From positions 40,157,198-40,221,197 of the forward strand of contig OZ020515.1 in NCBI GenBank assembly GCA_963971425.1: a stretch of 64,000 nt of DNA. The letters run 5' to 3'. Below, piece by piece: positions 6,664-31,099 of this stretch; the stretch's first letter is position 1, and each line of letters starts with the position of its first letter. Origin of the DNA: Bryoerythrophyllum caledonicum. Taxonomy: Eukaryota > Streptophyta > Bryopsida > Pottiales > Pottiaceae. The notes under the pieces were generated by a model, which was given only the letters and a program-made list of their open reading frames with translations, did no database searches and was not told the origin of the DNA. The position numbers and the translations under genes were made by a program.

Positions 6664-7160
6664 AAAATACCCATTTTCCTCTACTTGATCCGGTCCACCC
6701 TTAGCCTTTCCTTAACACTTTTAAAGTTTAAGGTTTTGACTCTTACGATCAATTGGTAAAACTAACAAAACTAGGATCATATCACTTGCTTAACTAAAAA
6801 AAAAAAACAATTTCCTAAAGTATTTACAAACTTTAATTGTGGTCTAGTGTGAAAAGGAGGTTCCGATAGGGTATAGATTAAAAGTCGATGGGCACTTCAC
6901 AGTTTAATGACAATGAGCAAGGCTCATGTCACACTTACACATGCTTGCTTGAATATGAATTAGTAAGATCAGAACCTTAAGAATGTAGACAACACCATCA
7001 TCGTTATATTGGGAGATTCAGCGACTCCCAAATTAACACATGTAGAACATAAGAGCTAAAGTGCACATCTAAACTCTACCTTATGGAGGGATATGAGTTT
7101 CTATTAAATTGGGAGGTAATGTTCACTACAAAAATACTACAAAAACACGAGTTCAGAAGT
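6664..7160. other. No gene seen
   Basis: The sequence is AT-rich with short ORFs only. It is on the 3' side of the DUF7869-like gene. No repeat boundary or RNA gene was recognised. Confidence 0.4.
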
Positions 7161-7175
7161 GGGAAAAAAGTTGCA

Positions 7176-7350
7176 CACACACTAGCTCTCTTCGAACTAA
7201 AGTGTCCCCATCACATAGAGGTGCAATGAACTCAAAAAAGAAATTCCACACACTTTAGCTCCACTTGGCCTAAAGTGCGCACCATTACTAAGTGCAATGA
7301 ACTAAAATGAAGACTTGCTGACACTTTAGCTCCACTAGAGCTAAAGTGTG
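7176..7350. repeat. Palindrome/spacer array, variant family (about 71-bp unit)
   Basis: Three imperfect palindromes of the form CACTTTAGCTC-N5-GAGCTAAAGTG start near 7179, 7252 and 7323. They are separated by related spacers containing GTGCAATGAACTNAAA. The best copy (about 7321-7349) has centre CACTA in place of the GACTC seen elsewhere. The same spacer type recurs at 17050-17185. Confidence 0.75.
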
Positions 7351-7659
7351 AACCAACATTAACTTTCTACCATTCACCATGAAGGCAATTATTGGTATTA
7401 TTGATTTCAAGATTACAAGTAATTTACCACATTGTTTTTTTAAAAAGGAAACAGAAACACACTGCAAATTATCACGGATATGCAAAAACAATGGAGAGAA
7501 TATATCATAGCAATCATTGGCATTAGATATAGTCATACAGAGTGTAATCCAATACAAATATCTATAATCTCAGCACCAATGGATCTAACCATATTACATG
7601 AAGTATCACGCATCGGAATCCAAAATCTAGGAAAAAGAAAGTTCATTTATCTAACTGTA

Positions 7660-9490
7660 TTACGATTCGGCCCTTGCAAGTGCTTTCAAGGAGGCCTTGA
7701 TAATCACTACTTGACCCTTCGGAATTTTTGTAGTTGAATCTTGTACATGACCTCCATCCCTCTTTGAAGACCTAGGTTTCCATGCTGTCAAGATTGAATC
7801 GGTACTCTCCCACGTTATGGCTATCCCCTTTTCAACTGTCAAGCGAAGGTTGCAATTGGTATCTCAATCTATATAGAACTTCAGAACATCCCGATCACGC
7901 GACATAGGCCGGAAGAATTGAATACGGACGGTGTTTGGCATATCCGGGTTAGAGTTAGGATCTAAAATTGCTTGAGCAATCCAAAATGGGCGCTCGTCTC
8001 CATCACAAGGCCGCAATGCAACAAAATAGCCAGCATAAAGATCACGACCAACTCTAAAAGAAGGAGGTGGACGATCGCGTCTCTGGCCAACAAAATGCTC
8101 ATCTTCACGGTACTCCTCCCAAACCTCACCATCCGCTGAGAACTCATCTTCAATAGCATGGGCAATTCGCGTTGTTGGCCAAAAGCCGTCTTCCAGTGAT
8201 ATCCGCGTATCCATTGGAAGAATTAGAGCATCTCTAACGTCGCGCCAATAGTACGATAGTGGCTCAAAACGTGATCTGGCTTCAACAGACTCCCACGATG
8301 ATTGCTCCCAATGATCGATGAATCCTGACAGCCCCTTCACAATCTCAGGGAGATGCCGCATCGTAGAAGGCTTCAATGCGTCAGGTTCTCCGCGAGGCCA
8401 TAAACTTCTCCCTTCAGTATCCTCCTTCCACAATCTGATGCCACTACCTTCCCCTCCTTTAGGAAGCCAATCCTCATCATGACAAAGAATTTTATACTTC
8501 ATTACCAGACAACCACTTGAGTCCACCTAAAACTTGAATTGATGAGCCTTCGTATGACCCTGCAAAGCTACATCACCGTCCGCAATCATATCCCAATGAA
8601 CTTCTTAAAGTCAGGAACCTCTTGGATGAGATGCGGGATTGTGGGAACACTCTCATTTTTTATGAATGACCTCATGAGCAGAGGAATGGTTGGAAAACTC
8701 TCCTTCCTCAATGCCATACTCCAACGTTCGAATAATGCATCTATATCATCATGTGTATGACCAACTAGCATGAAATTAACATATACCTTGCGGAAGATGC
8801 GTTTTGCAACAAGGAGAAACCAAAAACAGAAAACAAATCTATTTTTGTTATCACCAACAGCATTGTCCATTTGCACGTTCAATATTGGAGGCAAAGGCCT
8901 CCCTGGAACTCGGATATCTGGAATTGGCCCTAATGGATCCAAACACATCTCAGAACCCCGTAATACCACCGCATACAATGGATGAGAACTAGATTCTGGA
9001 AAGAGTTGCCAGGAGGTTGATTTTGGAGGTGCCTCCAGGTCACGCAATAGTTTTGCGAACGACCCGACTGTGTAATTGGCATCATGGGAGTATAAATCAA
9101 GGCCGTAATGGGCATAACGTTGGTCCACATGACCATGGGCAAGCATGCATGTGACTGCAAGAGGCAACTTCAAAAGCCCATCTAAGTGCTTTGTTTTTTG
9201 TGAAAAACCGGGGAGGCGGTCTTCGAGTGATCCATCTTATCATGCATGATGGTTAGAACCTCCTGGGGCGACGACTTTGATCAAAATCAGTTCAGGTAGT
9301 ACAAGTCCCGATGTACGAAATCAGAATCGATGTGAACCTGCATCTTCTTTTGCCATAGCAGTGATGCTTGTGTCCCAGGTTCAGTAAGCTTCTTCTGCTC
9401 CTGGTATTTGTCACACGTAGAACAACGGGCAAAGTTGTCTCCACCTTTCTTGGCATAGTTGTGGGAATCTGTTCCTGCAAAGTTCCGGAA
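7660..9490 (-). pseudogene. DUF7869-like element protein, central and C-terminal part
   Basis: In minus-strand order: a CSTCD Cys pair near 9410, a HDKMDH block near 9240, LAVTCMLAHGH near 9150, DNAVGDNKNRFVF near 8850, then FMLVGHTHDDIDALF near 8765, the hallmark of DUF7869-type plant element proteins. Next come GHTKAHQF, a VGRDLYAGYFVALRP...RPFWIAQ domain near 8000, and a C-terminal STDSILTAW motif near 7790. Defects are frameshifts near 9195 and 8590, TAG at 8527-8529 and TGA at 7864-7866. The N-terminal part lies at 13120-14300, beyond an unrelated element. I infer a transposase-like protein. The catalytic chemistry of this family is not established to my knowledge. Confidence 0.75.
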
Positions 9491-9975
9491 GTTAACCTAA
9501 GAATCCGGCAAAAACAAAAAAAAAGTTAGTGTTAGAATGTTAGAATTATAAGTTTGAACTATAGAATAGATAAATAAGAAATAAGACAACCTGGGGGTAC
9601 CAAAGATCCTTAAAACCGTTTAGGAATTACCGTAAATCCAAGGGATTTGGAACCGGAGAGATCGCTCACATCCGGAATCTGCCGGAAGCATCCGGAACCG
9701 GAAGTAAACCGGAGCCGGAGGGAACCCGGATCCGGAATTGGTCCGGAGCCGGAACCGCTATTATAACCGTAACGGCCGTCCGTACACCTCCGAAGGTATT
9801 AAAGCAAGAAGTTAGGTTTCACTCCCCACACTTCTTGGCTTACTCTTTTCCCTCCGCCCGTGCGTCTTATCTTCTTGATTCCCCTAGAACGGAAGTATTT
9901 CCAAGTAGAGAGAGTGTGTGGCAAGGTCAGTGCGTGCAGGTGGAACCGGGGAGACTGTGAGGAATCTCTGCAGAA

Positions 9976-11964
9976 ATGGCGGAAGGAGAACCTTCCCGGA
10001 CTAGTCGTGGTACGACGACGCAACCGGTGGTTCAACGGGTAGTCCCGATCATACCGACAGACCTGGAGGAGAAGGCCGTCCTCGAACACTACCTCACCAA
10101 CATGGGCTGCCAAGGGCTTCTCGACGTGGCGTGGGGTGCAAAGGACCCGAAACTGGTGGTGGAGCTGCTTGGGACGCCGGACAACCAGTACGATGGCACA
10201 ATCCGAGCTCACCCCAAAACTTGGGATATTCCGGAGTGGCAGCGTACCTACTCCTTCAGCAGCGGAACCGTCAAGACAGCGGAGTGGAGCGAAGACATAC
10301 TTGGAGACGAATTCACAAGGCAAGCCGACCCCAAAGAAGGCTACAACACCGACGACCTCCGGCATCAAGACGCGCAAATTGTGGTAAGATTCTTGAACCC
10401 GATCTTTCACCCGGAGAAACCTAAACGGGTGGTGTCTAAATGGGCCACCACCATATTAGGTTCGATGAGAGAGAAATTTAGTGTAGATTGGGCCTCGCTT
10501 ATGAGCGAGATGATCAACCGGATGGTTAAGGGACTCCAGAAGTCGAAGAGGGCCGGCACCCCTCTTCTCTTGTACCTCACTCACCTCTACGCACAACACG
10601 ATGTGCTTACCCCGGACGAGCAAGACGCATACGAGCTGCTGCTGGAGATCCAAAACTATGGAGGTCCAGAACCAGGAGACGATAACGAGGTTCCGGAGGA
10701 CGCGGAGACTTCCTTGCCCGAGGCAGTTCTCCAAAACCGGAAGCGGAGCAGATCTGTACCGCGGGAGTCGACACCGGGACCATCTACATCGATTCAGCCA
10801 ACGGGTGAGTAACCTCCGCAAGACCCCAGGTCAGCACCACGTGAAGGTCGCATTCCTCCGGCGGAGCCCCCGCACCTTGTTGCACTCGACGGGCCCGACC
10901 TACTGGAGCTCATCCAGCATGCAGGTTGGCGTGCGGCGATCGTGTGCCAATCTGAAGCACGATTACGAGAGGTCTTGGACGGCATCCGGCGGGAGCTGGA
11001 GGTAGAGAGGGTCGTGGAGATACCGACAACGATCCAAGAACTACAGAAGAACACACTCCCGCTCCAAGCCTTAGAGATCCAGCAGGCTGCCATCATCCGA
11101 AGTCGAGACAAGTTTGCTGCCACGTGCGACGAAACGTTTACGGCGTTGACAGAGTCCCGAAAGAAGCTGAAGGAAGCGGAAGATCGAGCAGACGCTTCCG
11201 CACAGGCCTTGACGGAGGTACGCGCCGCTTTAGCCTTTCCGGTTGACACGGTCAACCAGAGTCTTCTCTTCACAGATCAGCTAGAGAAGGAAGGAAGACT
11301 GAACCGGATCCAGATCATACGGTTCTTGCACGACCACGGCAAGAAGATGGAGAAGACATGGACTCGGATGTAGGAACTGCTGGCCAACCTGCCCACTTAG
11401 GGACCGGATAACCGGAGCACTCAAGCACCATAGGACATTGCAGTTCGGGTCCGTATCCGGACGTCTCCGGACGAACCCGGACCTTCAAGCGTACACCCGG
11501 AGGTTTCCGGGAAGCAGACGGATATCCCAACTCCGGCGGAGCCTGCTGCACCCATGACCGGCAGTCCTCCCGGCAACCCAAGCCCTGGTGCTGGAAGGCA
11601 CTGGACGGAGTTACTACCGGAGGTAAGTCAGGGCGAAACCCCTTCTCCCATCCGGCCTGCACCTACTCCTCCCTCATCAGGTCGCCGGAAGTCCACTCCA
11701 CCACTCGTTAGGAGTTTGGCGATGGATCTTCCTAGTCCCGGAGCCGAATTCCAAGGCTTTGCTGAAGCTCCGGAGACCATTGTGGTGGATTCCACCTCCG
11801 AACCCCCTCCATCGGCAACATCACAGCCTCCAACTTCCGGAGCCGGATCACAAGACCTTCCGGCATCTTCTACTCCCCAGCGGAGGAGGACAGGCAAGAC
11901 GAAGGCAGAGGCATCTACGAGACGTACCAGTCGAAGATTCAAGAACGTTGGATCACCCCCTTAG
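9976..11964 (+). pseudogene. Retroelement-associated ORF, copy 1 (degenerate, about 660 codons)
   Basis: A single frame runs from ATG 9976 to 11964 with four in-frame stops: TAA 10810-10812 and TAG at 11371, 11398 and 11431. Residues 1-240 are homologous to the ORF at 2611-3582, with PIIPTDLEE near the start, W.IPEWQRTY near 10225, HPEKPKRVV near 10410 and a helical segment LLLYLTHLYA near 10565. The middle (10940-11340) is heptad-like and rich in Glu, Lys, Arg and Ala, probably a coiled coil. The rest is Pro/Ser-rich and ends in a basic tail. It occurs twice in the window, both times with retroelement sequence, so it is element-encoded. The function is unknown; an antisense ORF of Tat-type elements is the best guess. 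Confidence 0.55.
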
Positions 11965-13110
11965 GTAGGTTAGATTTAGGAGTAGTAGTAGCTTAGGGAT
12001 CAGAATTAGGTAGCGATTAATGATGGGGCCCAAAGTTGCACCCGGCTACTCAATCCGGAAACTAAGCCTTCCGGAAACTTGGAACCTTCCCGGAATTTTG
12101 CGTACTTTTCGGATGTCCAGAATCCGGATCCGGGAAAATAGGATCTGAGATTCACTTTTCCGGATTTTTCGGGATAAGATCCTCCGGATTTCTTGCAGAC
12201 AGGATAAGCCTCAATTTAGGAACGATTCTTGTACTTAGTAGATGGGTTGTAGAAACTCATGGCCTTGTTTATTTTCCTCTACGTTGAATATATTTCAGAG
12301 CTGTTCTGGATTTGCTACCTAGTATTTGTGAAGAGAGTTATTTTACGTGTGAGGTTCAAGGTCCGTTGCGGTAGTACGTTTTGTGCAAGTTTCTTCGAAG
12401 AGAAGGATGTGTTGTTGTGCTAAGGAGTGAACCGACTTGGATATTCAACAGGGGAGTGTCCGGAATAACTGGAGGAGGTTGCAGAGGTGTTCCTGGTCAC
12501 CTTTAGAGTCCGGAAGAACCAGGAGGGGAAGAGATATATTGCAGAGGTGTTCCTGGTAGTCTCTAGGGCACGGAACAGTCCGTGTGAACCCGGATTTCGA
12601 TCCAAAACCGGAGTTTATCCCCCACGATAGGCTATGTGAGTCTAGAAGGAGTCCTCCCCAGTAGAACTATATCCCTATCTTCGTAGGGCTACAAAATTAC
12701 TATCGGAACGTCGTTGTAGTCCGGCCGTACCTTTGTGTGACCGCATCCGGAAGGCCTTCCGGATGTCCTGAGAGTTACGTCTAGGACCAACACCCTATCA
12801 CAGGTTAGTAGATTAGAAGAAGAGTGATTGTCCGGTCACTATAAACTCCGGGGCAGTGGGTGTCTAGCCACTTAAAGTTACAAGGCAGTGGGAAATCCGG
12901 CCACTTACACAAAATAGGATCAGTGGACTTCCGGTCACTCGTTTAAACCTTCCGGAAGCCGCTCTGAGGAGGAACAGAGGTAAATCAAACTACCCTCCAC
13001 ATTTCCGGAAATCATTTCCGGAAATAACTGTGAAACCTTCCGGAAACTAGATCCGGAAAGTTTTGCTTGGGTTTTGGAATCCGGAAGGATCCGGACTATC
13101 ACTGACTAGA
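11965..13110 (+). mobile_element. 3' non-coding part of the TTCCGGAA-rich element
   Basis: There is no coding frame. TTCCGGAA and TCCGGA occur very frequently. A 19-base direct repeat, TTGCAGAGGTGTTCCTGGT, lies at 12479 and 12539. A small hairpin array occupies 12832-12945. The region is probably the tail or LTR of the element whose ORF ends at 11964. Confidence 0.5.
12832..12945. repeat. Short array of CAGTGG...CCACT hairpins
   Basis: Three units with arms CAGTGG and CCACT (last copy TCACT) start at 12854, 12886 and 12921. Each has a 7-8 base loop, and unit spacing is 32-35 bases. A half unit precedes them. The array lies in the non-coding tail of the TTCCGGAA-rich element. Confidence 0.7.
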
Positions 13111-13119
13111 TTGACTAAC

Positions 13120-14300
13120 CTAGGTGATTAATAGACTAGTGATTTTGGGGTAATTTGAAAGGATAACTAGATCTCTGTGGGAACAAAACCGGAGTGGTTT
13201 ACTTTGGAAGCACTTAGTGACGATTGAGTGCATTCCGGAGGAATACTGACTCTGCAATCTACGACAATAGTACTCAGGGAAGCTCACTCGCCGAATCTTA
13301 CTCAAGCTTGAGGTTGAGATTGGCGGCAATCCACAATCAGCGAGATGATCATCAAAAAGCGGTATTTGATCCTTCCACTTAAACTTGCAGGTAAGACCTT
13401 TGCCACAGCCTTCTCCCCAGATGGGAGAACACGAGACTTGTGAGGCATGTGGTCCGCATGTCTATCGAGGATGGCTCCAAGAGCGGCAGTAGCCACAACT
13501 GTATGACCTCTAGGCTTACGCAAACCGGTATTCCCGTGGTGTTGAGCCGCATGACCAGCGGCAGCATCCTTCGCATTCCGATAGAAAGTACTCGAACTTA
13601 CATCCATGATTTTTATCCAGGCATGAGCATAAACGTCCACACCCTCTAGGGTCACAACCTTCCTACCCGCAGCGTTTCTATGAAACTGCCTGTGAACGTC
13701 GAGTTTGATCTGATTCCTGAACTGCACGATGGTCTCACTGTACAAGCGCGTACGGAGGACTTTTATTTTATCTCTAGGGTAGTGTTGAACACAGTTTTAA
13801 ATGCAACAACTATTACTCGCAACTGTGTTAATGGAATGAGGGGTCATGAGGAACTCAGAATTCCTGGACACTATTGGACGTGTATTCCTTGAGGAATTGT
13901 CGTACGAACGGGAGCTCCCACCTACAGGTCTGTTACGCTCAACCAACCAGACATTGTAAACGTCCCTAAGGCAATGATGGAAGAGACTCACACTGTTTAG
14001 GAAGACTTGTTGAATTGGCAAGGACTTAAACGAGTACCTCCATTCATCAGGAGCTTCCTCCAGAACAAAAGTACTGGACACCTGTACTACAACATTGGAA
14101 TCCCCAAGAGGACCAGAGGAACCTAGAAGTGCACTGGACCGGACATTGCGAACCAACCCCTCGGCAATGCGAACACCCGAACCATTGTGAAGCGATACAG
14201 TCATCCCGGCCCACAGACGGCGAGGAATAACATCAAAGTCAGGAAGGTCTGGATTAACGGGAGCGTCAACATGAACATTGTCGTCCTCAGAGGAAGACAT
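13120..14300 (-). pseudogene. DUF7869-like element protein, N-terminal part
   Basis: The likely start is ATG 14300, just after a splice-acceptor-like TTGGAATGCAG. The first segment (14300-13797) is acidic and then has a WAGMTVSLHNGSGVRIAEG block. A break or small intron near 13770-13810 leads to 13745-13302. That part holds HRQFHRNAAGRKV, VSSSTFYRNAKDA (helix-turn-helix-like) and ADHMPHKSRVLPSGEKAV, all typical of N-termini of DUF7869-type proteins. A further frame to 13120 contains PPISTSSLSKIRRVSFPEY. The rest continues at 9490-7660. The palindrome array at 14585-14938 lies directly upstream, in the promoter or leader intron. Confidence 0.7.
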
Positions 14301-14584
14301 CCTGCATTCCAATGAGAAAAATGTTAGATAATCCTTCTAAAAAGTATGGATGAATATCTTGAAGGAATGGACATCAATGCAAAAGCTTATGAAGTGGAAA
14401 ATTTAGCTCGAATCGAGGTAACTTCTAGTGCTTGAAATACAACCTGCATTTATTTGAATTGACATTGTGTACAAGGCAATTTTAGCTCGACTCAAGGTAA
14501 ACTCGGATGGAATTTGACAAGAATGCAATTTCTTGTTATCACTCAAAATACGATTATGAAATAATCGCACCCGTGCCAATGACA

Positions 14585-14938
14585 ATTTAGCTCGACTCGA
14601 GCTAAACTGTTATACCATATTTTCTACGTTAGTTTAGCTCGAGTCGATCTAAACTGTCGGACTATATTGATAACGACAGTTTAGCTCGAGTCGAGCTAAA
14701 CGGTCGTTGTAAATAAGGTATTACAGTTTAGCTCGAGTCGAGCTAAATTGTCATACCATAATTTCTACGTCAGTTTAGCTCGACTCGAGCTAAACTGTCG
14801 TTATCAATATAGTCCGACAGTTTAGATCGACTGGAGCTAAACTGTCATATCTTATTTACAATGACCGTTTAGCTCGACTCAAGCTAAATTGTCATTGAAT
14901 ATATGGTATGGCACTTTAGCTCGATTCGAGCTAAAGTG
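14585..14938. repeat. Eight 25-bp palindromes with seven 22-bp spacers (47-bp period)
   Basis: Palindromes start at 14585, 14632, 14679, 14726, 14773, 14820, 14867 and 14914, exactly 47 bases apart. Each has arms like GTTTAGCTCGA and TCGAGCTAAAC around one central base. Spacer order is A, B, C, A, inverted B, inverted C, then a diverged inverted A. Inverted B matches B exactly over 32 bases including flanks. The two A copies differ at 3 of 22 positions, and C versus inverted C differ at 3 of 32. Irregular palindromes also occur at 14401 and 14480. No Cas-like gene is present and the host is a eukaryote, so this is not called a CRISPR array. Confidence 0.95.
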
Positions 14939-14942
14939 TCCT

Positions 14943-15555
14943 TCCGTGATTCTCGGCGTCATTTTTGGTCTTCATATTGACAAACTCTTCAGCCTATGGA
15001 TCTTCATGTCTGTGTACTAGCACCCGAATTCTTGCATTAGTCATCGACATACGTGCAGTGACGCTTCAAAATCACAGTGACAACTAGAACTAGTGCAGTA
15101 ACCTTCACTGTCACATCCTAATTGCAAGAGTGCACGGAGAATGCAAGAAGTATACATCAATGTGTACCTTATGAAGTAGACTTTTGGTGCGTTGTTGCGT
15201 TGGGCAAGCGCCGAACTCAACCGTGCGCAACCCTAAACCCTCCTCAACCTCCCACAGTTGTACTACCTCCAAGCCTCTACCCAACAACGTTGCACAACAA
15301 TCAAACTGAGAAGGGAAAAAAATGAAGAAAGTGGGCGGAGGTTCGGCGAGGTCACTCACGCACACACGACCGTTCAATATTTGGGGGGAGGAAACTTCAG
15401 AATTAGTGGGAGGAAACTTTTCCACGGCCCCTTAAAAAATGAAAATTTGAAATCTTGGCGGGAAACTTAATGAACTATTTCCCGGTCGACTAAAATAAGG
15501 AAGAGTACATACCTCGAATATACTCGAAAATGCAAGTTATTTACACGTATATGTG
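14943..15555. other. No gene seen
   Basis: Short ORFs exist on both strands but none shows a recognisable domain or splice-supported continuation. The stretch links the palindrome array and the telomere-like repeats. Confidence 0.4.
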
Positions 15556-15559
15556 GGAT

Positions 15560-15675
15560 TCAGGGTTAGAATAACGCTCAGGGATAGGGTTAGTGTTTAG
15601 GGTTAGGGTTTAGGGTTTAGGGTTAGGGTTTAGGGTTTAGAATTTAGGTTCAGGATTAGGGTTCAGGGTTTAGGT
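15560..15675 (+). repeat. Interstitial telomere-type repeats (TTTAGGG/TTAGGG)
   Basis: The tract is made of TTTAGGG and TTAGGG units, cleanest at 15597-15640 and degenerate on both sides (AGGATTAGGG, TTCAGGG). TTTAGGG is the common plant and green-algal telomere repeat. The tract is short and mixed, so it is interstitial and not a chromosome end. A few similar units occur at 51050-51075 inside the solo LTR. Confidence 0.85.
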
Positions 15676-15679
15676 CCTT

Positions 15680-17030
15680 GGTTTTGGTATTATCTTGCCG
15701 ATGATTTCATTTCAATTTGCTAATACTTTGAATATTCCGGATATTGACAATTCCACTAAGGTATAGGGGAATGTAGAGAGCATATTGAAATGATTAGAGT
15801 GAATTTGTATTACAATCCAAATAGGACTTATCTATAAAGTTGAAAGAAAAGACCTTTACAAATGAGTAGCATTATAAAAACAAAAAACAAGTAATATATG
15901 CACGTGTAATTTGGAGCAAAAAAGTATGTATTCAAACATGCTTCGGACATCATTTCTTTGGGGTTTTTTTAAAGTGCGTATTGTTACTATTTTGTAATTA
16001 ACTTTGATTGTTCATTCTTGCGCAAGAATCCCAAGTGTCCCCATGGTCTGGATTTGGAATTGAAATTGATTACTATCCACTAAGTACTCAAAGACTGAAA
16101 ATGTGCGGAAACTAATAGTTGGATTAAAATATCTTATTCTTGACTTCACATTGTACTATCATGAGTTTAGGGTGTGACAATCTAAGCATGACATGAAAGA
16201 TGGAGGAATTCTTGACTATGCACAATTTATTTTATGTTTTGACGTGAAATTAAAGACTCTGTCGCTTGTAAAACATAGAGACTGGAACAATATTAAAAGA
16301 TTAAACAAGAAATGAAATGACCTCATGAAAAAGAAAGGATAATCAAAATATAAAATATAACTAATACAAAGTGTATCACTTAGTGCATCAAGCATAATTT
16401 AATGTTAATAATGTAAGTAATTTTGGATTTATTTATACATGCAATAAAGGAATAATTAGTTTTTAGCACGTTCAAGTGGTCGCAAATTATATTTTAAATT
16501 CTCAAATTTTTGTACAAGAATGGTGAAAAACATGAGGCATATTACGAAGTAATTTTTTTTTGTATTGAACGTCTTCAATAAAAGTTTTGCTAGCCAAAAG
16601 AGAAACTTCTCAATTGTGGGCACTTCGAGCAATTTTATAACCTTATGGTATGACACACTATGGAATGTGATATTTTCAATACATAGAAGTAATATTAGAA
16701 CGTTTGATATTGTGGAAAAACATGTTATTTTTCTAGTGACAAATAAGATTATATCCCAATTAATACATTTTCACACATTGTCACATATTATTGATTTAGG
16801 GTACCAGAAATACTTAGACTTCATATCCACTGAAGACTAGGAGATTGTCATATTTTTTTGCTTTTTAATATTACTATTGGAGGTTTAGGTCTACATTATT
16901 TGAAAATCCTTTTAAAATTCAAAAGATTTTATTTCACATTGTGAAATACTTAACCATAAAGAGAAGTATGGAGTTCAAAACGATTGTTTGAAGAAATGAA
17001 AATACACATTGCACATACATCAGCTTGGTT
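15680..17030. other. No gene seen, AT-rich
   Basis: AT-rich sequence with only short, unconvincing ORFs (for example 16456-16840). No repeats with clear boundaries were recognised. Confidence 0.4.
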
Positions 17031-17039
17031 TTTAGCAGA

Positions 17040-17190
17040 GGAGTGCTCCATCACTACGTGGAATGAACTAAAAGGAGTGTGTGCACACACTTTAGCTCCA
17101 ATAGTGCTAACGTGTGCCCCATCACTAGGTATAGTGAACTATAAAGAAAACACGCACAATTTAGCTCTACTAGAGCTAAATTAGAAGGAG
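17040..17190. repeat. Palindrome/spacer array, variant family (second locus)
   Basis: Palindromes start at 17089 and 17158, 69 bases apart, with CACTTTAGCTC or AATTTAGCTC arms. Spacers of the CCCATCACTAGGT..AGTGAACTA type lie on both sides, with a further spacer copy at 17048-17075. Both spacers match the one at 7205-7250. Dispersal of the whole unit, not only the palindrome, indicates copying of the array. Confidence 0.7.
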
Positions 17191-17399
17191 CTTGGGAATA
17201 ATAGGACGTAGGTATGCAGCAAAAGGAAAATCTCAAAAATTGGACAAAGTATAATATACATATGAAGGAAAAATGAAATTTCAAGTAGAAGATTGGAAAA
17301 ATAAGAACATTCTTTCGGGAACGAAAGTGAGAAAAGTAAGGAATATTGGAGAAGTGAAAAACTTAAACATACAATAAATATGGAAATATAGAAATACAA

Positions 17400-17760
17400 A
17401 AAAAATACTCATTAGATATCCATCACATATAATGCATTCAATGTGCATTACATATTCAATAAATATTCATTAAATATTCATTAAATATTCATTGAATATG
17501 CGAATACACATTGATTTTACATTTGAAATTTATTAACTATTCATTAACTATTCATTAACAATACATTAAATATTCTATAAATAATCCTTAAATATACAAA
17601 TATACAAATATTAATCAAACTGTCATAAAATATACTTTTAAAACTCTAAAGATTCATTAAATAAAATTTAAATATTCTTTAACTGTTCATAAAAATTACA
17701 GATATACAAATAGACATTAAATATTCTATAAAAAATCATAACAAAGTCATTTGTTATTGG
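17400..17760. repeat. AT-rich ATTCATTAAAT-type simple repeats
   Basis: The words TATTCATTAAAT and ATTCATTAACT repeat with short gaps, most densely at 17455-17570. The tract is non-coding. It may be a satellite remnant or low-complexity DNA. Confidence 0.7.
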
Positions 17761-18137
17761 CTAATGATATGATTACACATTAAATGTTCAGTAGATATTC
17801 CTAAATAATGTAAAAGAAATTCAAGACAAAATGATGAGAATAGTTCTGAATAAGACGATAAATATCTCAATATATTTAAATAATTATATGTGTTTACTCT
17901 ATACAATAACAATTTTATCTTTTGTAAATAGTATTTATAGCTAACTTCTACAAGCTTTCACTTTTAATTGCTGTAATCATAAATTTACAATGTAAGTATC
18001 AGTTTGAAATTATAAAAGTATAATTTTTTTCCAAAATTATTAAAATGCAAAAGCATGTTCAATTTCGTATTGAAAGTAATAGACAAAAATTCAAAGACAA
18101 AAAGACAACTACAAGAAGACAAAGACAAAAAGATGAA

Positions 18138-18400
18138 GACATAGTTGTAGGAGCCCCAACAGCTGTTGTTGAGACCCCAACAGCTATTGTTGGGGGCCCA
18201 GCGACTGTTAATGGGGCCCCAACAACTATTTCTGGGGGCCCCAGCGACTGTTGTTGGGGCCCCAACAGCTATTGCTGGGGGCCCCAGCGACTGTTGTTGA
18301 GGCCCCAATGGCTATTGCTAGGGGCCCCAACGACTGTTGCTGGGGCCCCAACACCTATTGCTGGGGGCCCCAACGAGTGTTGTTGAGGCCCCAGCAGCTA
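18138..18400. repeat. GGGGCCCC palindrome array (about 21.5-bp spacing, 43-bp unit)
   Basis: About a dozen GGGGCCCC palindromes or one-base variants lie 21-22 bases apart. Two spacer types alternate: AACAGCTATTGCTG and AGCGACTGTTGTTG. The second resembles the reverse complement of the first (about 10 of 14 positions). The repeat unit is therefore two palindromes, 43 bases. Long ORFs over this tract on both strands are by-products of the repeat. Confidence 0.9.
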
Positions 18401-18959
18401 TTATTACGTGATGGTAGTGGGATGGTGTTGGTTGTGATTTGAACTGGTGTAGGACGAACTTATATATAACGACGGTAATGAATTTACACCTTCTGTAATG
18501 CAGTAATTGAAATTGTGTCAAGTGAAAGTCAGCTAATCCACTCAAAGCATGAAAGAAAACCAAGCACTTTAATCCTATTTTCAACACTAAACACATGAGT
18601 TGTTCACGTCCGTGCAATCAAAGTTTGTGTATTATAAAGAGTATTTGAATATATAAGTCTTAAATGAGATCATACGTTTGAAATTGGAAATATTATATTT
18701 TCTTTGACTCTCGATCGTTGCCTCAGAATTTAAAAATTTGTACTGTCTAAGGCTTAGAGAAATTGTCTTGGAAACTTACAACTAGAGAAATTGTAAACGC
18801 GTAAAAAACTGACATTATGAGAAGGTTTAACTTTTCTTAGAAATGAAATGGAAAATATGCAAAAAGTACGAAATCGAACTGATTTTTTTTTAAATCGAAA
18901 AGTAATTTAAAAAAATAATCAAAATGTAAATTTTTAAAAAAAAATTCTGAAAAAATTGG

Positions 18960-19062
18960 TGCATCCACCAGAATACCCGAGGGTATTTGCCTGATATCTG
19001 AGGGAGCATCCCGAGGGTATCTAGGCAATCCCGAGGGTATCCCAAGGGTATCCTGAGGGTTT
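18960..19062. repeat. CCCGAGGGTAT repeats
   Basis: The word CCCGAGGGTAT, in one copy extended to the palindrome ATACCCGAGGGTAT, occurs several times with variants (CCCAAGGGTAT, CCTGAGGGTTT). It sits just upstream of the inferred leader of the locus that begins near 19100. Confidence 0.7.
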
Positions 19063-19085
19063 CGACGCGACCATAGGAGCCGTCC

Positions 19086-20186
19086 TCACGGCTTAGGGTT
19101 ATGAATTGAAGACGTCCAAGGTCTCGAATCGGGCCGCGAGCTCTCTTTCTCTCTCTCTCCTTTCCGTGCTCCTGTGCGTGTTCTCCTTCGTCTTCGTGTC
19201 TGTGGTGTGCGTGTTCTCCTTCGTCTTCGTGTTTGTGTCTGTGGCTTGTCTAAGTTAGTTTTGTGTTCGTGTTCGTGTTTGTCTTCGGCTCGTGCTGGTG
19301 TTGTGCGTTTGTTCATGTAGAGTATTGCTCAGTTCGTGTTTGTAGAAGCACTGTCAATAGAGTTTCTGTTAGGGTTTGTTGCGCACGTTCTCGGAAACGT
19401 GTAGACTTAGGTTTTCTGCTAATAGGATTTGCAAGAAGTGAGGGTTTGAATTAGGTGAGGTTTCAAGCACGTAGAGATTGAAACGCGTGAAGCTGTGAAG
19501 GATTAACGTGATTTTCGAACAAGGAGGAGGAACAAGAAGCTGAAGAAGACTTTCGACACTTAAAGGTATGTGTACAGATCGCGTTCTTGTACAATTGTTT
19601 CATGGTTTTTCTGCTTTGGTGAATTATGTTTGATGTTTCGTGTTTTCTGGTTTTATGTTAGCTGAAATTATGGTGTTTGGTGGTGTTTGCTGTGATTGTA
19701 TGGATTTTTTTTTCCTTCAGGCATTTGTTGTATTTTATTGCTCTTAGTTTCTGTTTGTATTAGAAGTGCGTGTGTTGATTGTTGTTTTGTGGAATTCGTG
19801 TTATGTTCTGTCGTAGTGGTGATGCTAGTTCGTTTTTTAAAATGAAAATTAGTTTCAATGTGTTGCTTTGAATGTGCTGGTTTGTGTTGAATGTGCTGAT
19901 TTCGAAGTGTAGAATGTTGAATGTATTCATTGTTGGATGTGTTGAAACGTTCAATGTGATAAATGTTCAATGTATTGCTTTATGTTTAGGTTTTTCTGTG
20001 GTTCTGCATTGTGATTGCTTCTTTGTGGTTGTATTTTCTGTGTGCATGTTGTTGTTTATTGGTTTTGGGATAGAGTGATTGGTTGTTTAATTGATTGGTT
20101 GATTGATTGTTTGATATTGATCTTGCAGGACGTCTAGTTCCAACAGAGTTTGTCTGGGATTAGAGTTCCAAATCAATGGCTGAAAG
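19086..20186 (+). promoter_or_regulatory. Inferred promoter and 5' leader of the 20-31 kb locus
   Basis: A pyrimidine-rich TCTC tract (19140-19165) is followed by a leader ending AAAG|GTATGTG at 19565. A leader intron of about 563 bases ends TCTTGCAG at 20128. The next exon holds an ATG at 20176 (ATGGCTGAAAG), split after 11 coding bases by GTAAAATC at 20187. The coding codon resumes in phase at 21438 after TGTGTGCAG. The two consensus introns and the phase match support the model. The transcription start cannot be placed. Confidence 0.5.
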
Positions 20187-22882
20187 GTAAAATCCATACT
20201 CTAACCCAGGAGCCCTACACCCTACGCCTAGAATATCATTTTACAAAACACAAACCTGCAGAAACTGTAATACATAATCATTTCAATCAACACATTTTAG
20301 CTTGAGTCGAGCTAAAGTGGAGCCAAAATAGCACACTCTTGGCTACACTTAAGCTCGACTCGAGCTAAAGTGCGGCTTAAATTACACACTGTTGGCTACA
20401 CTTTAGCTCGACTCGAGCTAAAGTGCGGACAAAGATGCATTAGACCAGTGCAATTCTGCTCAACAGAAGCTAAACTGTACAGGACCAATGCATCTCTGTT
20501 GGCACTTTAGCTCGACTCGAGCTAAATTGCGGTTTTAATTACACACTGTTGGCTACACTTTAGCTCGACTCGAGCTAAAGTGGGGACAAAGATGCATTAG
20601 ACCAGTGCAATTTTGCTCAACAGAAGCTAAACTATACAGGACCAATGCATCTCTGTTGGCACTTTAGCTCGACTCGAGCTAAATTGCGGTTTTAATTACA
20701 CACTCTTGGCTACACTTTAGCTCGACTCGAGCTAAAGTGCGGACAAAGATGCATTAGACCGGTACACTTTTGCTCAACAATAGCTAAACTGTACAGGACC
20801 AGTGCATCTTTGTTGGCACTTTAGCTCGACACGAGCTAAAGTGCGGCCTAAATTACACGCTGTTGGCTACACTTTAGCTCGAGTCGAGCTAAAGTGCGGA
20901 CAAAGATGCATTAGATCAATTTCACAACTCAATAACTCTGCCTATCAAAATAATCATCAATCTAATTATCAAATCCAAGACGCTTTACCTCGAATCGAGC
21001 TAAAGTGTAAAACAGATGAAATTACCCACAACCTAAACATCACCACTTTCATTCCTAAAAACATTCCAGAAGTAGAGGTTACCGATGATATCGATGACCC
21101 AACTCATGACTAGTTCTCGTTCACCTCTCAGAAATTGTGCATGAGCTTAAGTCCCGCTCCAACCACTTGAGAACCTCATACAGAGAGCTTCGTGAGTGAT
21201 TGAATCGGTTCGTAAGCTTTTTCACAGTTTCGGGAGTTGAACAAGAAGTTGTCATGAATTGATTGCATGGGTTGAGGAAAATATTAGAAATGACTATACT
21301 ATAATGCAGAGTGTTAAATAAATACTTTGCGTTCAGATACACTTTAGCTGGAGTCGAGCTAAAGTGTAACCTCTCCGTCCTTATTGGATGATCAATTTAG
21401 CAATCAAATATTTGTGCTTGGTTTTGTGTGTGTGCAGATCTGATAGGGACAGGATGGTGACTCAGCTGCAGCACTTCTTCCAGCCGAAGCCCGTCGACAT
21501 TGATGATGACGATGGAGACGACAACAACCACTCGGATTGCTGGGAGCTCAAAGACCCAACAATGACACTGAAGTGGACGCTGCTGTGGGCCCCCTACACA
21601 GAGAATCTAGTGTTTGGTCAGACCTTCGCTGGTGATATCAGTGAACCCCAGCACACCGACTTCAAGACCAAAATTACTGATGTAGTCCACGAAGATAAGG
21701 ATCTAGTGAAATTGTCGTGTGAAACAACCACTGAGTCTGTTGATCCTTATTTGTTCACTATTGTAGTGAACAATACTTCGTCTCCATTCTGTATCTACGA
21801 TTTAGTCAGTTCTCTTAGGGGGTCACAATTTAATGATATAGTGGCTCAGGTTGACCACGAAATCTCACAAAAGAAATGGGAGACTAGTAGTGGTTAGCCG
21901 CTGAAAGCGAAGGCTGTAGCAAATAAACTCCGCGTCATTCTTTCGAGAATGAGTATCTTTGCCGCTCTTGAGCAGGCAAAACTAATCGCGGCGAGGTGCC
22001 CAATAGAACTTTCGGTATTATCTGGGGCCGTAACCAATAGCGAGAATATGAGTCAAGCGTCGGTACCGGTTAGAACTCCAAGTGCAAGAACAAGTCGAAG
22101 CACCTTGCGGAACATGCTGTCCGCTTCTCCCGTCAAGAAGCGCTCAGCTGCCAAGAAGCCGGAGACCTCTTCTAGGAAGAAGACGAAACTCGTTTCAGAG
22201 GAGGAGTTGGCCAATTCGATGGCCTCTGCTCTATCAGAGCTCCCTTCGGCGCTCGGGTTCGGAGAGGTAATCGACTACACCAACGTCCAACAGATTTACC
22301 AGAAATTTTGGACGGAGTGTCAGAGCTGCTTCTTCCAAGGAGACAGAGATGAAGATCGAGCTTGACGTAATGAGGCTGCATAATGCACCGCCGGAGTGGA
22401 CGATCCGTGCATTCGAACCTCGCGGTATGGAGGAGTTGAAGCATTATTACCTCGAAATGCCGGACAAGACGCAGAAGCAGACTCTCTGCGTCATGCCCAA
22501 GCTCGATCATATGCCAACGACGGTTGCAGAGCTCAGCGACTGCGACTTCTGCATCATCAACAGCCAGCACAGCATTGCTGCATCAAAGTCGATGATAAAC
22601 GGCAACGTCCCGGAGGTTATGACAAGGCACTTTCGAACATGGCAGTGTTACATTGTCTGGACGGAGGACCTTGAGAAACTGAGGAAGATTTCCGCGTATT
22701 ATAATTGCGTAAATCACTTGGTCCAATTCAAGCCGACGTGGGCAACAAATATCCTTGGCTCTCGGGCGTTGTGGATCTAAGCTGGAAGACCAATGCCGAA
22801 GCACTCCGCCGCAGGCATTCGCGAGTCCCATAGGTCAGGTCGGAGAACGGCAGTGGAGATTGCCAATGACAAGAAGTTTGAG
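20176..22882 (+). pseudogene. Locus exons 1-2: acidic N-terminus and ParB-like segment
   Basis: Exon 1 is 20176-20186 and exon 2 is 21438-22882, ending GAG|GTAATT. The N-terminus MAERSDRDRMVTQLQHFFQP is followed by an acidic Asp run. A Ser/Lys/Arg-rich basic stretch (22080-22200) could carry a nuclear signal. The last 150 codons contain ELSDCDFCIINSQHSIAASK, then a W..YIVW segment and a NILGSRALWI helix. This spacing recalls ParB/Srx folds (a G-Q-H-R signature followed by a strand and a helix), but Gly and Arg of that signature are changed. Defects are TAG 21895-21897, TAA 22778-22780 and a frameshift near 22330. The ParB assignment is tentative. Confidence 0.45.
20294..20895. repeat. Palindrome/spacer array with 157-bp higher-order unit, inside intron 1
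   Basis: Palindromes (ACTTTAGCTCGA, one base, TCGAGCTAAAGT) start at 20294, 20347, 20400, 20504, 20557, 20661, 20714, 20818 and 20871, with degenerate ones near 20453, 20610 and 20766. Spacing is 51-53 bases, and three units form a 157-base repeat present about four times. Within each unit one spacer (GATGCATTAGACCAGTGC) is matched by an inverted relative (AGGACCAATGCATCTCTG) after the next palindrome. Confidence 0.9.
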
Positions 22883-23635
22883 GTAATTAATCCTAACCAA
22901 GGTCATGCACTTTAGCTCGATGTGAGTGGCCAAAGTGGGCCCTCACTCTTTTTTCTTCATTTTTTCGAGTTTTCTTGATAGTATTAACTAAATTTTAGCT
23001 AAATTGGTGGTCAATCCACCTATTAGAGTCAAAGTCCTAGATTAATAGGCCTAATGCCATGATGGGACACTAAGTTCCCTATCTTTTCCTCCTCCCTACT
23101 AATATACTTAAAAGTGTAGTGGAAGTGGAATGGACATGAAGAGAAAGATAAAAAATGGGAAGGAAGTCCTTGGAAAATGACCAAAAATTGAGAAATGGGT
23201 AAAAAATATGGGAAAAAATTGGAAGAGTGTCTCCCAGCAGGTAGAAGTAGTGGTAAAATTTCTAGAATTTTCCGAGTTGAATTGCTATTTTATTCTAGGG
23301 GTTGACTAGTTGATCGACGGGTTGACCACTCGGGAAAAATACTTAAAGAACTCCAAAAATGCTAGGAAAATTTAGGTAGACTAATTAGGGTGCTGGGAGT
23401 CCAGCTGTGTGGTTAGTTTTTGAAGTTATAAGTAAATTGCAAATCATCAGTAGATAGTAGTAGATCTAGTGTAATAGTCTTTAAAAGATCAAAAGAAAAA
23501 GAAAAAAAAAGGAAAAAAGAAAGAAAAAAAAAAGAAAAAGAACACAGCCAGGCAAAATGCCTAGCGAAGAGCGCTGGAGCTCTCTTTTTTGTGGGGGTCT
23601 GCTTCTTTTTTTTCTCCTCGTGAGCACCGGGAATC

Positions 23636-23960
23636 GGGGCGCGAGGAGAGCTGAATTGGGTGTGGGTGTGCCGCGAGTGTGCGGGCGTGAGGCACCTGTG
23701 TGTGCGCGGAAGCTGGGCTCTCTGTTTTTTTTTGGAAAAGAGCTGTTTGGAGAGGTGCGCCCTGGGCGCGAGGAGAGCTGAATCGGGTGTGGGTGTGGGC
23801 ACCGCGAACTGAGGGAGTGGGAGAGGAGCTCCTGTGAGCGAGAGGATCGAGAGCTGGAGCTCTCGTGTGTTGTTGGTTTTTTTTTTTTGGGTTGGGTGTG
23901 GGTGCGCCGCGAGTGCGGGCGTGAGGCACCTGTGTGCGAGAGCACCTGTGAGGGTGCAAC
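23636..23960. repeat. GC-rich imperfect direct repeats
   Basis: A segment GCGCGAGGAGAGCTGAAT followed by GGGTGTGGGTGTG occurs at about 23639 and 23767. A third related copy without the first half lies at about 23893 (GGGTGTGGGTGCGCCGCGAG). The GTGAGGCACCTGTGTG motif recurs at 23686 and 23920. These generate the long spurious ORFs in this part. Confidence 0.7.
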
Positions 23961-25337
23961 GAGGTGGAGGTTCCGGCGAGATCGAGCGAGGAGAGCTGAA
24001 GCTCTTGGGTTTTGGGAGGTCTCTCCTCTTCTTCCGTGTGAGCTGGGATCGGTGCGCGAGCTCCGGCTCCTGTGTGCAACGAGCGAGAGGCTCCAGGTGC
24101 CGCGATCGACGTGAGGATTCGGGGGCTGGAGACCAGGCGGAAGAGGTGTGCACCTCTGTGTGTGCGAGCTGGAGATCGGCCAGCGAGAGGAGTTCCTGTG
24201 AGCGGCGGAGCTGGGAGTTGAAGGCTGGAGCTACGTTTTTTTTTCTTTTCTTGTTGTTTTTTTTTTTTTTTCTTCTTTCTCACCTGTGTGAGGAAGTGTG
24301 AGCAGGAGGATGGCATCGGAAATCGCGCGTGTCTATAGACATGCGCAGTAGGGTGCATGGTGGTTGCCGGAAGGAGAGGCGAGCTGGAGGATCCAGGCGG
24401 GAAGAGTGCGCGTGTGTTCCGACCCGCGTGAGTTGGAAGTGAGGCGCGGATGTGGAGAAGAGCTGCGCGAAGGTGTTCACGATCTAGAAGGCGCTGTGGA
24501 AGAGATCGTTGAGCTGGAAGTGAAGTGCTGGAGTCGAAGGTGAGCGAGAAGAGGCTGCAGCGATTGGACCAGGGAGTATTTCTTGGGTGAAGCTATCTTC
24601 CTTAAATTCTCACATGCATGCAGTCGTAGCAGTTCTTCCTGTGTGTTGATTGAATTTGTGGGATCTCTAAACGTGCGCGGAAGCGCTTGAGGATTTTTTT
24701 TGACTTTAGGGTTTTGGAACTTAGTAATGATTGCTCGCTGGTCGATGCAAGAATGCTGGAGCACACTTAAGTGAGAGTGGCTGGCTCGTGTAAGTTGAGC
24801 CAAATTTTATTTCATCTTCTTTTTTTTTGCTAAATAGTTTAGGGAATGCTTGTAAGTTGGTGCTCGTTGGAACCGTTGGGAAGTTGATGAATGGCGTTTC
24901 CACTTGAATGATGCGTGGACTCGTGAGGGAGTCGTGAATGCTTGTTGTGGCTGTAGGTCACCGCTGCCGCCTATATGAGGCAGTTTTCAAGGTCCGGTTG
25001 AATCTTCTAATGAGTCTATCGTCAAGAACACGAAGAATGGATGAGACTAGAAGTTGAAAACGCTCAATTCGGATTTAATCTTGGGAAGTTAAGCTGTTTA
25101 AAACAAAAAGAGGGGAAACTGGAATTCACAGGGACTGTCTACTGCCACTGCTGGTTGAGGTCGGTGTTAGTCTTGAATGAGGTATTTAGTGGTTTATTCA
25201 AGTTGGAATTGAGCTGCGGATTAGGTTAAGAGGAAATTTTTTTGGATTCGGAGTCCCGAATCAAAAGATAAAGGTGGCTAAAGTTGTTGCTCAAAACAGG
25301 ATCTGGATCAGGCCTGATCAGCCGACCTAAACAAAAA

Positions 25338-25440
25338 ATATATATATATATATAATAAAATAAAAATAAATAAATAAATAAATAATAAAACAACAAAAAA
25401 TTAAAATAAATGAATAAATAAATAATAAGTAATAATACTC
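25338..25440. repeat. AT-rich microsatellite
   Basis: A (TA)n run is followed by AAATA/AATA repeats and similar poor-complexity sequence to about 25440, inside intron 2 of the large locus. Confidence 0.85.
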
Positions 25441-25824
25441 ATAATAACTAATAGCCATAATAATTAGATAACAATTCATTAGTTAACTGTTCACACCTAT
25501 TTAAGTTATCCAGAGCTAAGTGATTAAAATTCCAAGGGAGGGTTAATCGAGTTCACTTAACTGGGTTAAGATAGTAGTACTATTACTTCCTAAATATATA
25601 AATGGATACGCCAAGATCCAAATCCAGTAAAGGTAGAATGTATGGTTAAGCATAAGGAATGGTTTAAGTGGTGTAAGAATAGGACCTTGTGGGTTTAAAA
25701 ATTGATTCTCTTAGGGGGTCTATTTTTGGGCTTACACTCGACTCGAGCTAACTTGTGTGTTTGCACTTTTTTAGTATAGTTGTGTACATAGATTCAATCA
25801 CATATAGTGTATACTCTCCGGTTG

Positions 25825-25851
25825 CAAGTTAGCTCGACTCGAGCTAACTTG
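25825..25851. repeat. 27-bp palindrome with altered arms
   Basis: The arms are CAAGTTAGCTCGA and TCGAGCTAACTTG around one C. Compared with the common CACTTTAGCTCGA form, both arms carry the matching changes, so perfect symmetry is kept. Confidence 0.95.
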
Positions 25852-25929
25852 AGTTTCTTGGACCTACTGGCCACGTTTATTTTCTACTGTGATTGTACAC
25901 TAAAGCAACCCTGCCAATGTTCTGCACAG

Positions 25930-27290
25930 CCATTTCTAAATGCGGTTTGTGAGCGCTTCGCAATGATCAACGTTGCGAAAAGCCAGGCAACGCTCAAGAA
26001 AGCCGGAAAGGCAAAGGAGCTCTCGATTACAAACGAGGTGAAGATTATCACCTCGTGTGATGAGATCTTCAAGCTCTGATCGGACGTCATCTCTTCTGCG
26101 GCACAAGGCGACCTTATCAACGTCGATTCAACAACGTCGCCCTTGTCAAAGTTTAAGGACGCCAAGTCCTGAGTGCCTGAGAAAGATGGGGTTTTGACGC
26201 GCGAGTTCTTCAAGTTCTTCGGCAACATGACCGAGGCTGATCACGCAACACTGTGTAAGCATATACTCAATCGGTCAGGACCATCGCGAAAACTACCTTA
26301 TCCTAAGGTGGTTGTGAAGCAGCCGCAATCAGTGCTGGAGGATTGTTACAGCGCCCGGGACCGGGTTGATCGAAGGAAGAGGAAGGAGGTCGCTTGGATG
26401 GAGCTTCAGTTGATCATGCCGGAGCTCGCCTTCTTCAACAGCACTGGAGCGTACAGTCGTTCCAACTCGCGAAAGTTCAAGACGAACTACAACGTCAGCA
26501 AGGCCTCAAAGTGTGCCTTCTTGGATTGGGGTCCACCGGATTCGTACTATGCAAAATCGAGGCAGACGCAGTTTCGCAACTACAAATGTGAAGATCTCTC
26601 TCCGTATGCGAAGGAGTTCTTCAGAGTCTTCATCGATGTGCGGTCACGGTTCGTTGCACCTTTGGGGGCCTTGCACTTTTGTCCATACAAGGCGGCAACC
26701 AACTCGCTCGGAGGATGGCCCTCAGATTCGTGGCGTAACATGGGTTGCAACGTGAAGCTTGGCATCATCGACTTCCGTAATATCACTGGTTTCGCAGGGA
26801 AGGCAACGTCGTCATTGGAGAAGCCCTTCTTCGACGAGTTCATGACAATGTTCGCATCGAAAGGGCAGCCCTCACCGGTCTTCCAACGTGGCTCTTTATT
26901 TACGGCGACGAGTAGTCACACCTTCAAGTGACAGCGTTTGCTGAGGGCCTGTCGTTGTGCCATGCATATGATGTGCTGCAGTCGAAGTATCTTCCCTCCG
27001 AGAACGAGCGCTTGGGGGGATTTGCACCGAAGACCAACAACGCTCTCGACCCGGTTCGCCTCCTTTTTCTCTTCAAGTTGGAGCTTACGCAGATCCCGGC
27101 CGTGAAGAAGACCTACGCAGCTCCGGAGCATGTGTTGCACACCAAGCTGCGCAAGTACAACGAGCTGGCGTATTCGATGAACATGAACGAGCTGAGGATG
27201 GAGTTCTTCATCAAGGTTCTGGAGCTGTTCTGCAAGAGGGGGGAGTCTGTTGTCCAGCTGTTTGGCGGGACTAAATTACTGACTGCAAGT
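25930..27290 (+). pseudogene. Locus exon 3: permuted DNA-methyltransferase-like domain
   Basis: Starts after TTCTGCACAG and ends AGT|GTGCTAAG. In order it encodes a helical linker, then AFLDWGPPDSYY near 26520, aligned with motif IV (DPPY) but reading GPPD. A helix LSPYAKEFFRVFIDVRSRF and a strand LGALHFCPY follow, as after motif IV of DNA methylases. Near the end come VLELFCKRGESVVQLFGGTK (motif I-like, usual form FxGxG). Motif IV before motif I is the beta-class order of bacterial N4C/N6A methylases. Key residues are altered, so catalysis is unlikely. Defects are TGA 26077-26079, TGA 26170-26172, a frameshift near 26875 and TAG 26913-26915. Confidence 0.5.
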
Positions 27291-31081: not shown

Positions 31082-31099
31082 ACTGTTTGATTAGTGATA

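Follow-up and report, generated by a model that had tools for sequence, protein, structure and literature searches.

The host element and its genes

The window, a 64,000-nt stretch of contig OZ020515.1 of Bryoerythrophyllum caledonicum, holds a copy of a giant DNA transposon with two divergent genes, one encoding a DUF7869 protein and running leftward from 14300, the other (gene 2) running rightward from its ATG at 21454. A strictly periodic series of palindromes (array 1) lies upstream of the first and a looser series (array 2) upstream of the second (Table 1). The inverted ends, AACACCATattCGTTATATTGGGA, are flanked in all 9 of the 9 copies checked (that of the window and eight others) by a target duplication of 4 bp; since these mark the outer limits, array 1 is an internal part of a DNA transposon. 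The window copy is 24.4 kb long with its nested insertions, or 20.6 kb when the insertion at 9460-13266 is subtracted. Judged from where their matches stop, the eight other copies fall into five of ~17.2-18.6 kb and three of ~32-43 kb, the latter presumably holding nested insertions.

The insertion at 9460-13266 contains two adjoining open frames (283 and 186 aa), and self-comparison found no long terminal repeats in it. A second nested insertion probably splits gene 2 at ~22800-25700, where the C9 copy has ~1.4 kb against ~4.2 kb in the window. Also inside the element, at 18144-18402, is a tandem array with a 43-bp period, rich in GGGGCCCC.

Table 1. Coordinates of the transposon, its genes and its palindromes in the window
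Feature	Position	Strand	Remarks
Left 4-bp target site duplication, AGAC	6987..6990	.	equals 31374-31377
Giant DNA transposon copy holding array 1	6991..31373	.	homology to other copies runs from 6991 to ~31373 in tens of loci
Left terminal inverted repeat, AACACCATcatCGTTATATTGGGA	6991..7014	+	24 bp
Three palindromes near left end	7181..7345		at 7181, 7254 and 7325
DUF7869 gene	7864..14300	-	ATG at 14300; long open copies in L011, L013, L017, L027
Nested insertion without palindromes	9460..13266	.	3.8 kb; 5-bp duplication
Single palindrome, 102 bp upstream of DUF7869 ATG	14402..14422	.	90% identical across copies, flanks 82%
Single palindrome upstream of DUF7869 gene	14481..14501	.	94%, flanks 79%
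Array 1, eight palindromes	14581..14940	.	exact 47-bp period
Exact inverted tract, 60 bp (spacer 2 and parts of both adjoining palindromes)	14642..14701	+	mirrors 14773-14832
Mirror copy of inverted tract (spacer 5)	14773..14832	-	mirrors 14642-14701
Palindrome pair between the two genes	17091..17180
Array 2, upstream of gene 2	20296..20893		spacing 52/53/104 bp
Single palindrome upstream of gene 2	20984..21004
Single palindrome ~90 bp upstream of gene 2 ATG	21343..21363
Gene 2, start of conserved ~490-aa protein without known family	21454..22780	+	interrupted in window copy
Palindrome pair where gene 2 ends in the C8 and C9 copies	25732..25848		placed by coordinates
Single palindromes between and beside the right-part ORFs	27310..30730		at 27310, 27401, 27526, 28645, 29991 and 30710
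Right terminal inverted repeat	31350..31373	-	24 bp
Right 4-bp target site duplication, AGAC	31374..31377	.	equals 6987-6990

The element is abundant. With the array as query, a search of the same genome (437 Mb in 894 contigs) yielded at least 123 matching stretches from the best 40 of 577 candidates; because only the best candidates were scored in the genome searches, copy numbers given here are lower bounds, and counts within families are affected by relatedness. Twenty array places were fetched with ~4.5 kb on each side and compared to the window in 250-bp bins: 16-18 of them match the window at 7000-9459 and 19-20 from 13267 to ~16000, with fewer matching further right, where the fetched loci end. 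Some array regions are 99% identical between loci, indicating recent spread. Of the 40 places scored when an L056-type array was the query, 27 fell on the 65-Mb contig C1, which suggests that this subfamily is concentrated on one chromosome.

The DUF7869 gene of the window is broken, by an in-frame stop at 13797-13799 as well as by the insertion at 9460-13266, and is still matched by Pfam (E 5e-36; E 3e-40 for the L017 copy). L011 has a 686-aa open frame with a start almost identical to that of the window gene. Pfam scans covered 20 proteins as well as copies of gene 2; among the 20, DUF7869 was the only domain matched in a putative transposase gene, and a literature search on DUF7869 found nothing. 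Genome-wide there are 3,611 first-look DUF7869 candidates; 150 of them were scored, and open frames of ~1,070 aa are common among these. The window itself has a second, different DUF7869 gene fragment outside the element (60963-61907, minus strand; 28% identical in alignment), and this right part of the window is without palindromes of the array motif.

Gene 2 has a stop-to-stop frame of 502 aa (487 aa from the ATG) in many of 150 listed copies, the others being shorter or containing stops. Among four full-frame copies of the protein, three are 85-87% identical to the first. In six comparisons between four copies picked for their open frames, dN/dS was 0.14-0.21, indicating a protein under constraint. 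It holds a basic stretch, and searches of Pfam, NCBIfam and PHROGs gave nothing significant for it. Predicted folds of the DUF7869 protein and the gene 2 C-terminus are of low confidence (pLDDT 31 and 41, respectively). Apart from an ORF with an NLI-interacting-factor (NIF; CTD-phosphatase-like) domain at 29104-29958 on the plus strand (E 2e-16), which is possibly a captured host gene, the non-DUF7869 ORFs of the element that were scanned gave no informative Pfam match.

To the right of the element, an exact 678-bp duplication (35123-35800 and 39808-40485) lies beside two large ORFs, of 1057 aa (with TPR/CHAT matches) and 742 aa, and a masked stretch (N) at 54430-55257 falls inside an open frame that looks reverse-transcriptase-like by eye. 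An Rfam scan of the window at gathering thresholds gave no match.

The palindrome: position, conservation and a sister form

The eight palindromes of array 1, with the core TTTAGCTCGASTCGAGCTAAA, start at 14586, 14633, 14680, 14727, 14774, 14821, 14868 and 14915, bearing out the exact 47-bp period described in the first-pass annotation. They are not isolated: two degenerate sites (14402 and 14481) come before the array, and array 2 follows at 20296-20893. With up to 3 mismatches allowed, the window has 29 occurrences of the motif and 100 shuffles have none; allowing up to 5, the 21-bp palindrome occurs 36 times in the 20.6 kb of the element and 0 times in the other 43.4 kb, nested insertion included. 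The palindrome is element-specific. In exact form it occurs 3,562 times genome-wide, and the reversed pattern 0 times. Array 1 lies ~280-640 bp upstream of the DUF7869 ATG and array 2 0.56-1.16 kb upstream of the gene 2 ATG, each with two single sites nearer to the gene. The pair at 25732-25848 is assigned to the end of gene 2 on the basis of the C9 and C8 copies, whose match to the window from 25737 onward starts where a 488-aa gene 2 frame would end.

Within 40 arrays, the palindromes are 88% alike and the 16-bp spacer cores 56%, with shuffled cores at 35%. When single sites were compared to their flanks in up to 20 loci, five of seven were more conserved (one slightly), one equal and one less. 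Besides the two sites nearest the DUF7869 gene (Table 1), the more conserved are those at 7325 (99% against 92% for flanks), 17091 (97% against 92%) and 17160 (99% against 98%); that at 7254 equals its flanks, and that at 7181 is less conserved (90% against 93%). In 40 young arrays palindromes and flanks have decayed alike (1.9 and 1.8% divergence), as expected of dead insertions. A CpG-decay test for hypomethylation of the palindromes showed no difference (1.8%, against 1.6% for flanks). The length of the spacers is only weakly constrained: in ten representative arrays there were 0.023 length changes per substitution in spacers, against 0.046 gap openings per substitution in flanks.

Neighbouring palindromes alternate in orientation in 420 of 697 cases. 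Selection for an RNA hairpin was considered and rejected: among the mutated pair positions in 357 palindromes, 306 were changed on one side and 26 on both, with 10 of the latter compensated. The symmetric change between families, described next, is evidence for symmetry, yet a dimer site accounts for it equally.

Part of the L027 locus is a related element, with 69 and 66% DNA identity to the DUF7869 gene region, and carries an array of TTCAGCTCG...CGAGCTGAA with a 34-bp period. This sister palindrome has C/G instead of T/A at positions 3/19, both half-sites being changed symmetrically, and its form TTCAGCTCGASTCGAGCTGAA has 641 exact sites genome-wide. The 4,583 sites in the genome thus divide into 3,562 T/A, 641 C/G and (by subtraction) 380 mixed, where independent halves would lead one to expect 1,361 mixed. 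The two forms are also divided between elements: C/G makes up 9 of 14 sites in a further locus, L120, and 4 of 9 in the nested part of L027, while the window has 29 of 33 T/A and 0 C/G, and loci of the window family 875 of 965 T/A and 8 C/G. L120 has a gene 2 homologue (37% identity over 493 positions, E 7e-103; ~40% in a multiple alignment) situated between two clusters of sites, eleven upstream and a three-site array of 45-bp spacing at the gene end. Its DNA gave no match to that of the window at E 1e-5. Another DUF7869 family, L119, known here from one locus of 5 kb, has no palindrome array. The two families with palindromes thus share the motif, its place and its symmetry, as a co-evolving symmetric binding site would predict. 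The scarcity of mixed sites may instead come from common descent of the two families rather than from selection on each site; against this, array 1, array 2 and the single sites must then all have changed together.

Orientation and copying of the spacers

To follow the spacers across copies of the element, 94 arrays were parsed: the window, L009-L028, L045-L063, L064-L083 and L084-L118 minus L116, which could not be oriented. L001-L008 repeat other places and were left out of the array counts. The period in the parsed arrays is 47 bp in 663 of 755 steps and 46 bp in 80. Orientation is mostly stable. Among close arrays in the first 40, there is no reversal in 1,036 of 1,047 aligned spacer pairs, at a threshold that misses L021 and L052; nine of the 11 exceptions belong to one array (L048), and two are misalignments.

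Single reversed spacers do occur. Position 4 of L048 is an in-place flip, the reverse complement (26/26) of position 4 in L052 and L057. In the other cases a spacer that differs from its siblings matches the reverse complement of another in its own array: position 5 of L071 and L072 that of position 3 (26/26; 15 differences from siblings), position 9 of L066 that of 7 (26/26; 2 differences), position 4 of L021 that of 8 (26/26; 6 differences), position 8 of L052 that of 4 (25/26, near-exact; 7 differences) and position 2 of L017 that of 5 (26/26; 16 differences). L071 and L072 are ~17 kb apart and were counted as one backward event.

Near-identical spacer pairs within arrays number 18 inverted (in 15 arrays) and 19 direct (in 17 arrays); L027 entered this count with its sister-family 34-bp array (four 13-bp spacers, one direct pair) and not with a window-type array. 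Among the inverted pairs, nine of 18 come from one subfamily (7/9 or 7/10) and are largely inherited; among the direct ones, 8 of 19 (all 7/9) trace back to a 94-bp duplication held in common, so that both counts overstate the number of events. On these counts backward copying is roughly as common as direct duplication, and any one spacer is seldom affected by either.

The backward copies could be explained by fold-back template switching among the self-complementary repeats, or by gene conversion in inverted orientation, in which case no recombinase would be needed; a literature search on inverted conversion gave nothing on this element. Inversion of single spacers by template switching had been suggested for array 1 from its sequence. 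The process fits the reversed spacers in sibling copies, although not array 1 itself, and the expectation that other arrays would hold spacers in both orientations is borne out to the extent of the single cases listed above. Elsewhere orientation is stable, making programmed switching unlikely. The arrays also document, as a natural archive, how self-complementary repeats are copied backwards, in part in copies sharing 97-99% identity.

Array 1 has a history of its own. The first-pass annotation gave its spacer order as A B C A B' C' A', with B and B' (spacers 2 and 5) identical over 32 bases and each of B and C flipped on its own. The reverse complementarity of spacers 2 and 5 is indeed exact, but the exact inverted tract is 60 bp long, and it is centred on the fourth palindrome (14737). 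The letters overstate the diversity of the spacers, not being independent types (A and C' are 73% alike). In six relatives (L009, L010, L013, L014, L020 and L022), spacer 3 matches the reverse of spacer 4 at 20-25 of 26 positions and the reverse of spacer 6 at 16-18; the window is the opposite, with 18 and 23, respectively. The window's spacer 3 agrees in its first part with the reverse of spacer 6 and at its end with spacer 3 of L009. Between spacers 2 and 5, 26 of 26 positions pair in the window, 23 in L010 and 21 in L009, against 11-13 in L013, L014, L020 and L022. These comparisons point to spacers 2-3 and 4-5 having formed one inverted block in the window's subfamily, and to a later overwriting of the window's spacer 3 from spacer 6. 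Since, among the arrays compared, spacers 2 and 5 pair only in the window and its two closest relatives (L009 and L010), the full block belongs to this subfamily. With the six relatives and a tract mirrored about 14737 indicating one mirrored block, and spacer 3 overwritten later, separate flips of B and C are rejected for this array. Assembly error as the sole cause is unlikely, arrays of the same type having been parsed in 94 loci on many contigs.

Possible functions and known systems

The reading we favour, if by a modest margin over even chances, is that the palindromes are docking sites for a symmetric regulator, probably encoded by the element. Each palindrome would bind a symmetric (dimeric) DNA-binding protein, for which the gene 2 product is the first candidate. 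Sites upstream of both divergent genes and elsewhere between ORFs would recruit the regulator, which would either switch on the element's own genes or keep them unsilenced. The spacers would be passive. Template switching or gene conversion inside the array would duplicate, delete and now and then reverse single spacers or blocks, reversal being possible because every repeat is its own inverted repeat. Few systems allow a direct test of how transposons recognise their own copies. This genome offers thousands of copies of the palindrome, two half-site families and a conserved candidate protein, so that co-evolution of motif and protein could be tested by swaps.

A bolder version, which we think rather unlikely, is a parS-like system of self-marking. 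The gene 2 protein, possibly with a highly diverged ParB-like domain, would bind the palindromes as a dimer, spread from the two dense clusters and mark or protect the chromatin of the element; motif and protein would change together between sister families, the motif symmetrically in its two half-sites, and the array would be renewed by fold-back copying, with reversal of single spacers as a further outcome. The gene 2 C-terminus contains IINGQHSVAAS, a ParB-like motif as read by eye. It found no support in searches of Pfam, NCBIfam, PHROGs and PDB sequences, nor in a Foldseek search, which carries no meaning given the low-confidence model behind it; tblastn with the C-terminal domain gave no plasmid match and six phage records, the best at E 0.5, which were left out of account. 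Were this version true, a eukaryotic giant transposon would carry its own self-marking system.

CACTA elements have dense short motifs that are bound by their transposase, and with this precedent the palindromes might be internal or subterminal repeats on which a transposition complex assembles. Three sites do lie within 0.36 kb of the left end. The dense arrays, however, are ~3.8 and 9.5 kb from that end (not counting the insertion at 9460-13266), their distances to the right end are 16.4 and 10.5 kb, the last 0.64 kb at that end has 0 sites at up to 5 mismatches, and both are upstream of genes. Transposase binding is on these grounds rather unlikely.

That the array is a neutral, satellite-like one spread by slippage, with the palindrome as a by-product, seems improbable. 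Direct and inverted duplications are frequent, and the nearly equal divergence of palindromes and flanks in the 40 young arrays (1.9 and 1.8%) would suit such an origin. Homogenisation, however, would affect the spacers too, yet their cores are 56% alike and the palindromes 88%; the motif is found at single sites as well, and a symmetrically changed form is kept in a sister family, although no alignment to the window was obtained for the non-coding DNA compared.

The arrays might also act as replication origins or hr-like sequences, combining enhancer and origin as in large DNA viruses. Baculovirus hrs have a similar architecture, with tandem units of a ~30-bp palindrome gathered in scattered clusters (PMC2834656). 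The Pfam scan of 20 proteins recognised no replication gene, and a cut-and-paste element, being integrated, can do without its own origin; we consider an origin quite improbable here.

Very improbable indeed, in spite of the single reversed spacers in L048, L071/L072, L066, L021, L052 and L017, is the likeness to a CRISPR array or a shufflon that the layout had first called to mind: spacers are related to each other rather than foreign (core identity 56%, against 35% shuffled) and recur in many copies of the element, the frequent switching by a site-specific recombinase that defines a shufflon is contradicted by 1,036 of 1,047 spacer pairs being unreversed at the threshold used, and in the Pfam scan none of the 20 proteins matched a recombinase or a Cas-like family.

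For docking of an element-encoded regulator, as favoured here, several known systems offer partial parallels, although a literature search on palindromic motifs in transposons gave nothing on this element. In bacterial REP/BIME sequences, palindromes that alternate in orientation are set apart by short linkers, of which there are a few types. This arrangement resembles the arrays here, but REPs and BIMEs are bacterial, intergenic and associated with different proteins, and alternation in the present arrays is limited to the 420 of 697 cases noted above.

The palindromes of the baculovirus hr enhancers are bound by IE-1 (PMC2834656). The likeness lies in two respects, the dispersed tandem units centred on a ~30-bp palindrome and, on the hr side, binding by an encoded regulator in dimeric form; the setting differs, a transposon with target duplications here and a virus there. 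No protein of the element among those scanned with Pfam matched IE-1.

Sola elements make 4-bp target duplications, as does the present element. Ectocarpus Sola1, 21.5 kb long, has a gene for a ParB-like/methyltransferase protein on the strand opposite the transposase, and its authors suggest that this protein may bind and modify the element; nested insertions are reported for most of its giant families (PMC12477816). A size of ~20 kb, a divergent accessory gene and nested insertions are common to both. The gene 2 protein, of ~490 aa and without a methyltransferase match, differs from the 1104-aa protein given for Sola1, and no tool used here tied DUF7869 to Sola.

The VANDAL transposons of Arabidopsis have VANC proteins with target motifs that are dense in non-coding parts, introns and upstream regions, and that form tandem arrays changing fast between related copies (PMC5735166; PMC10398659). 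The VANC motif is 9 bp long and directional, in contrast to the 21-bp palindrome, whose element carries a DUF7869 gene and makes target duplications of 4 bp. Pfam, which may hold no VANC model, pointed to no VANC-like protein when run on gene 2 and the other non-DUF7869 ORFs scanned. The two systems share an element-specific short motif that is dense near genes in non-coding DNA and forms fast-evolving tandem arrays, and that differs between related families together with the proteins of the element.
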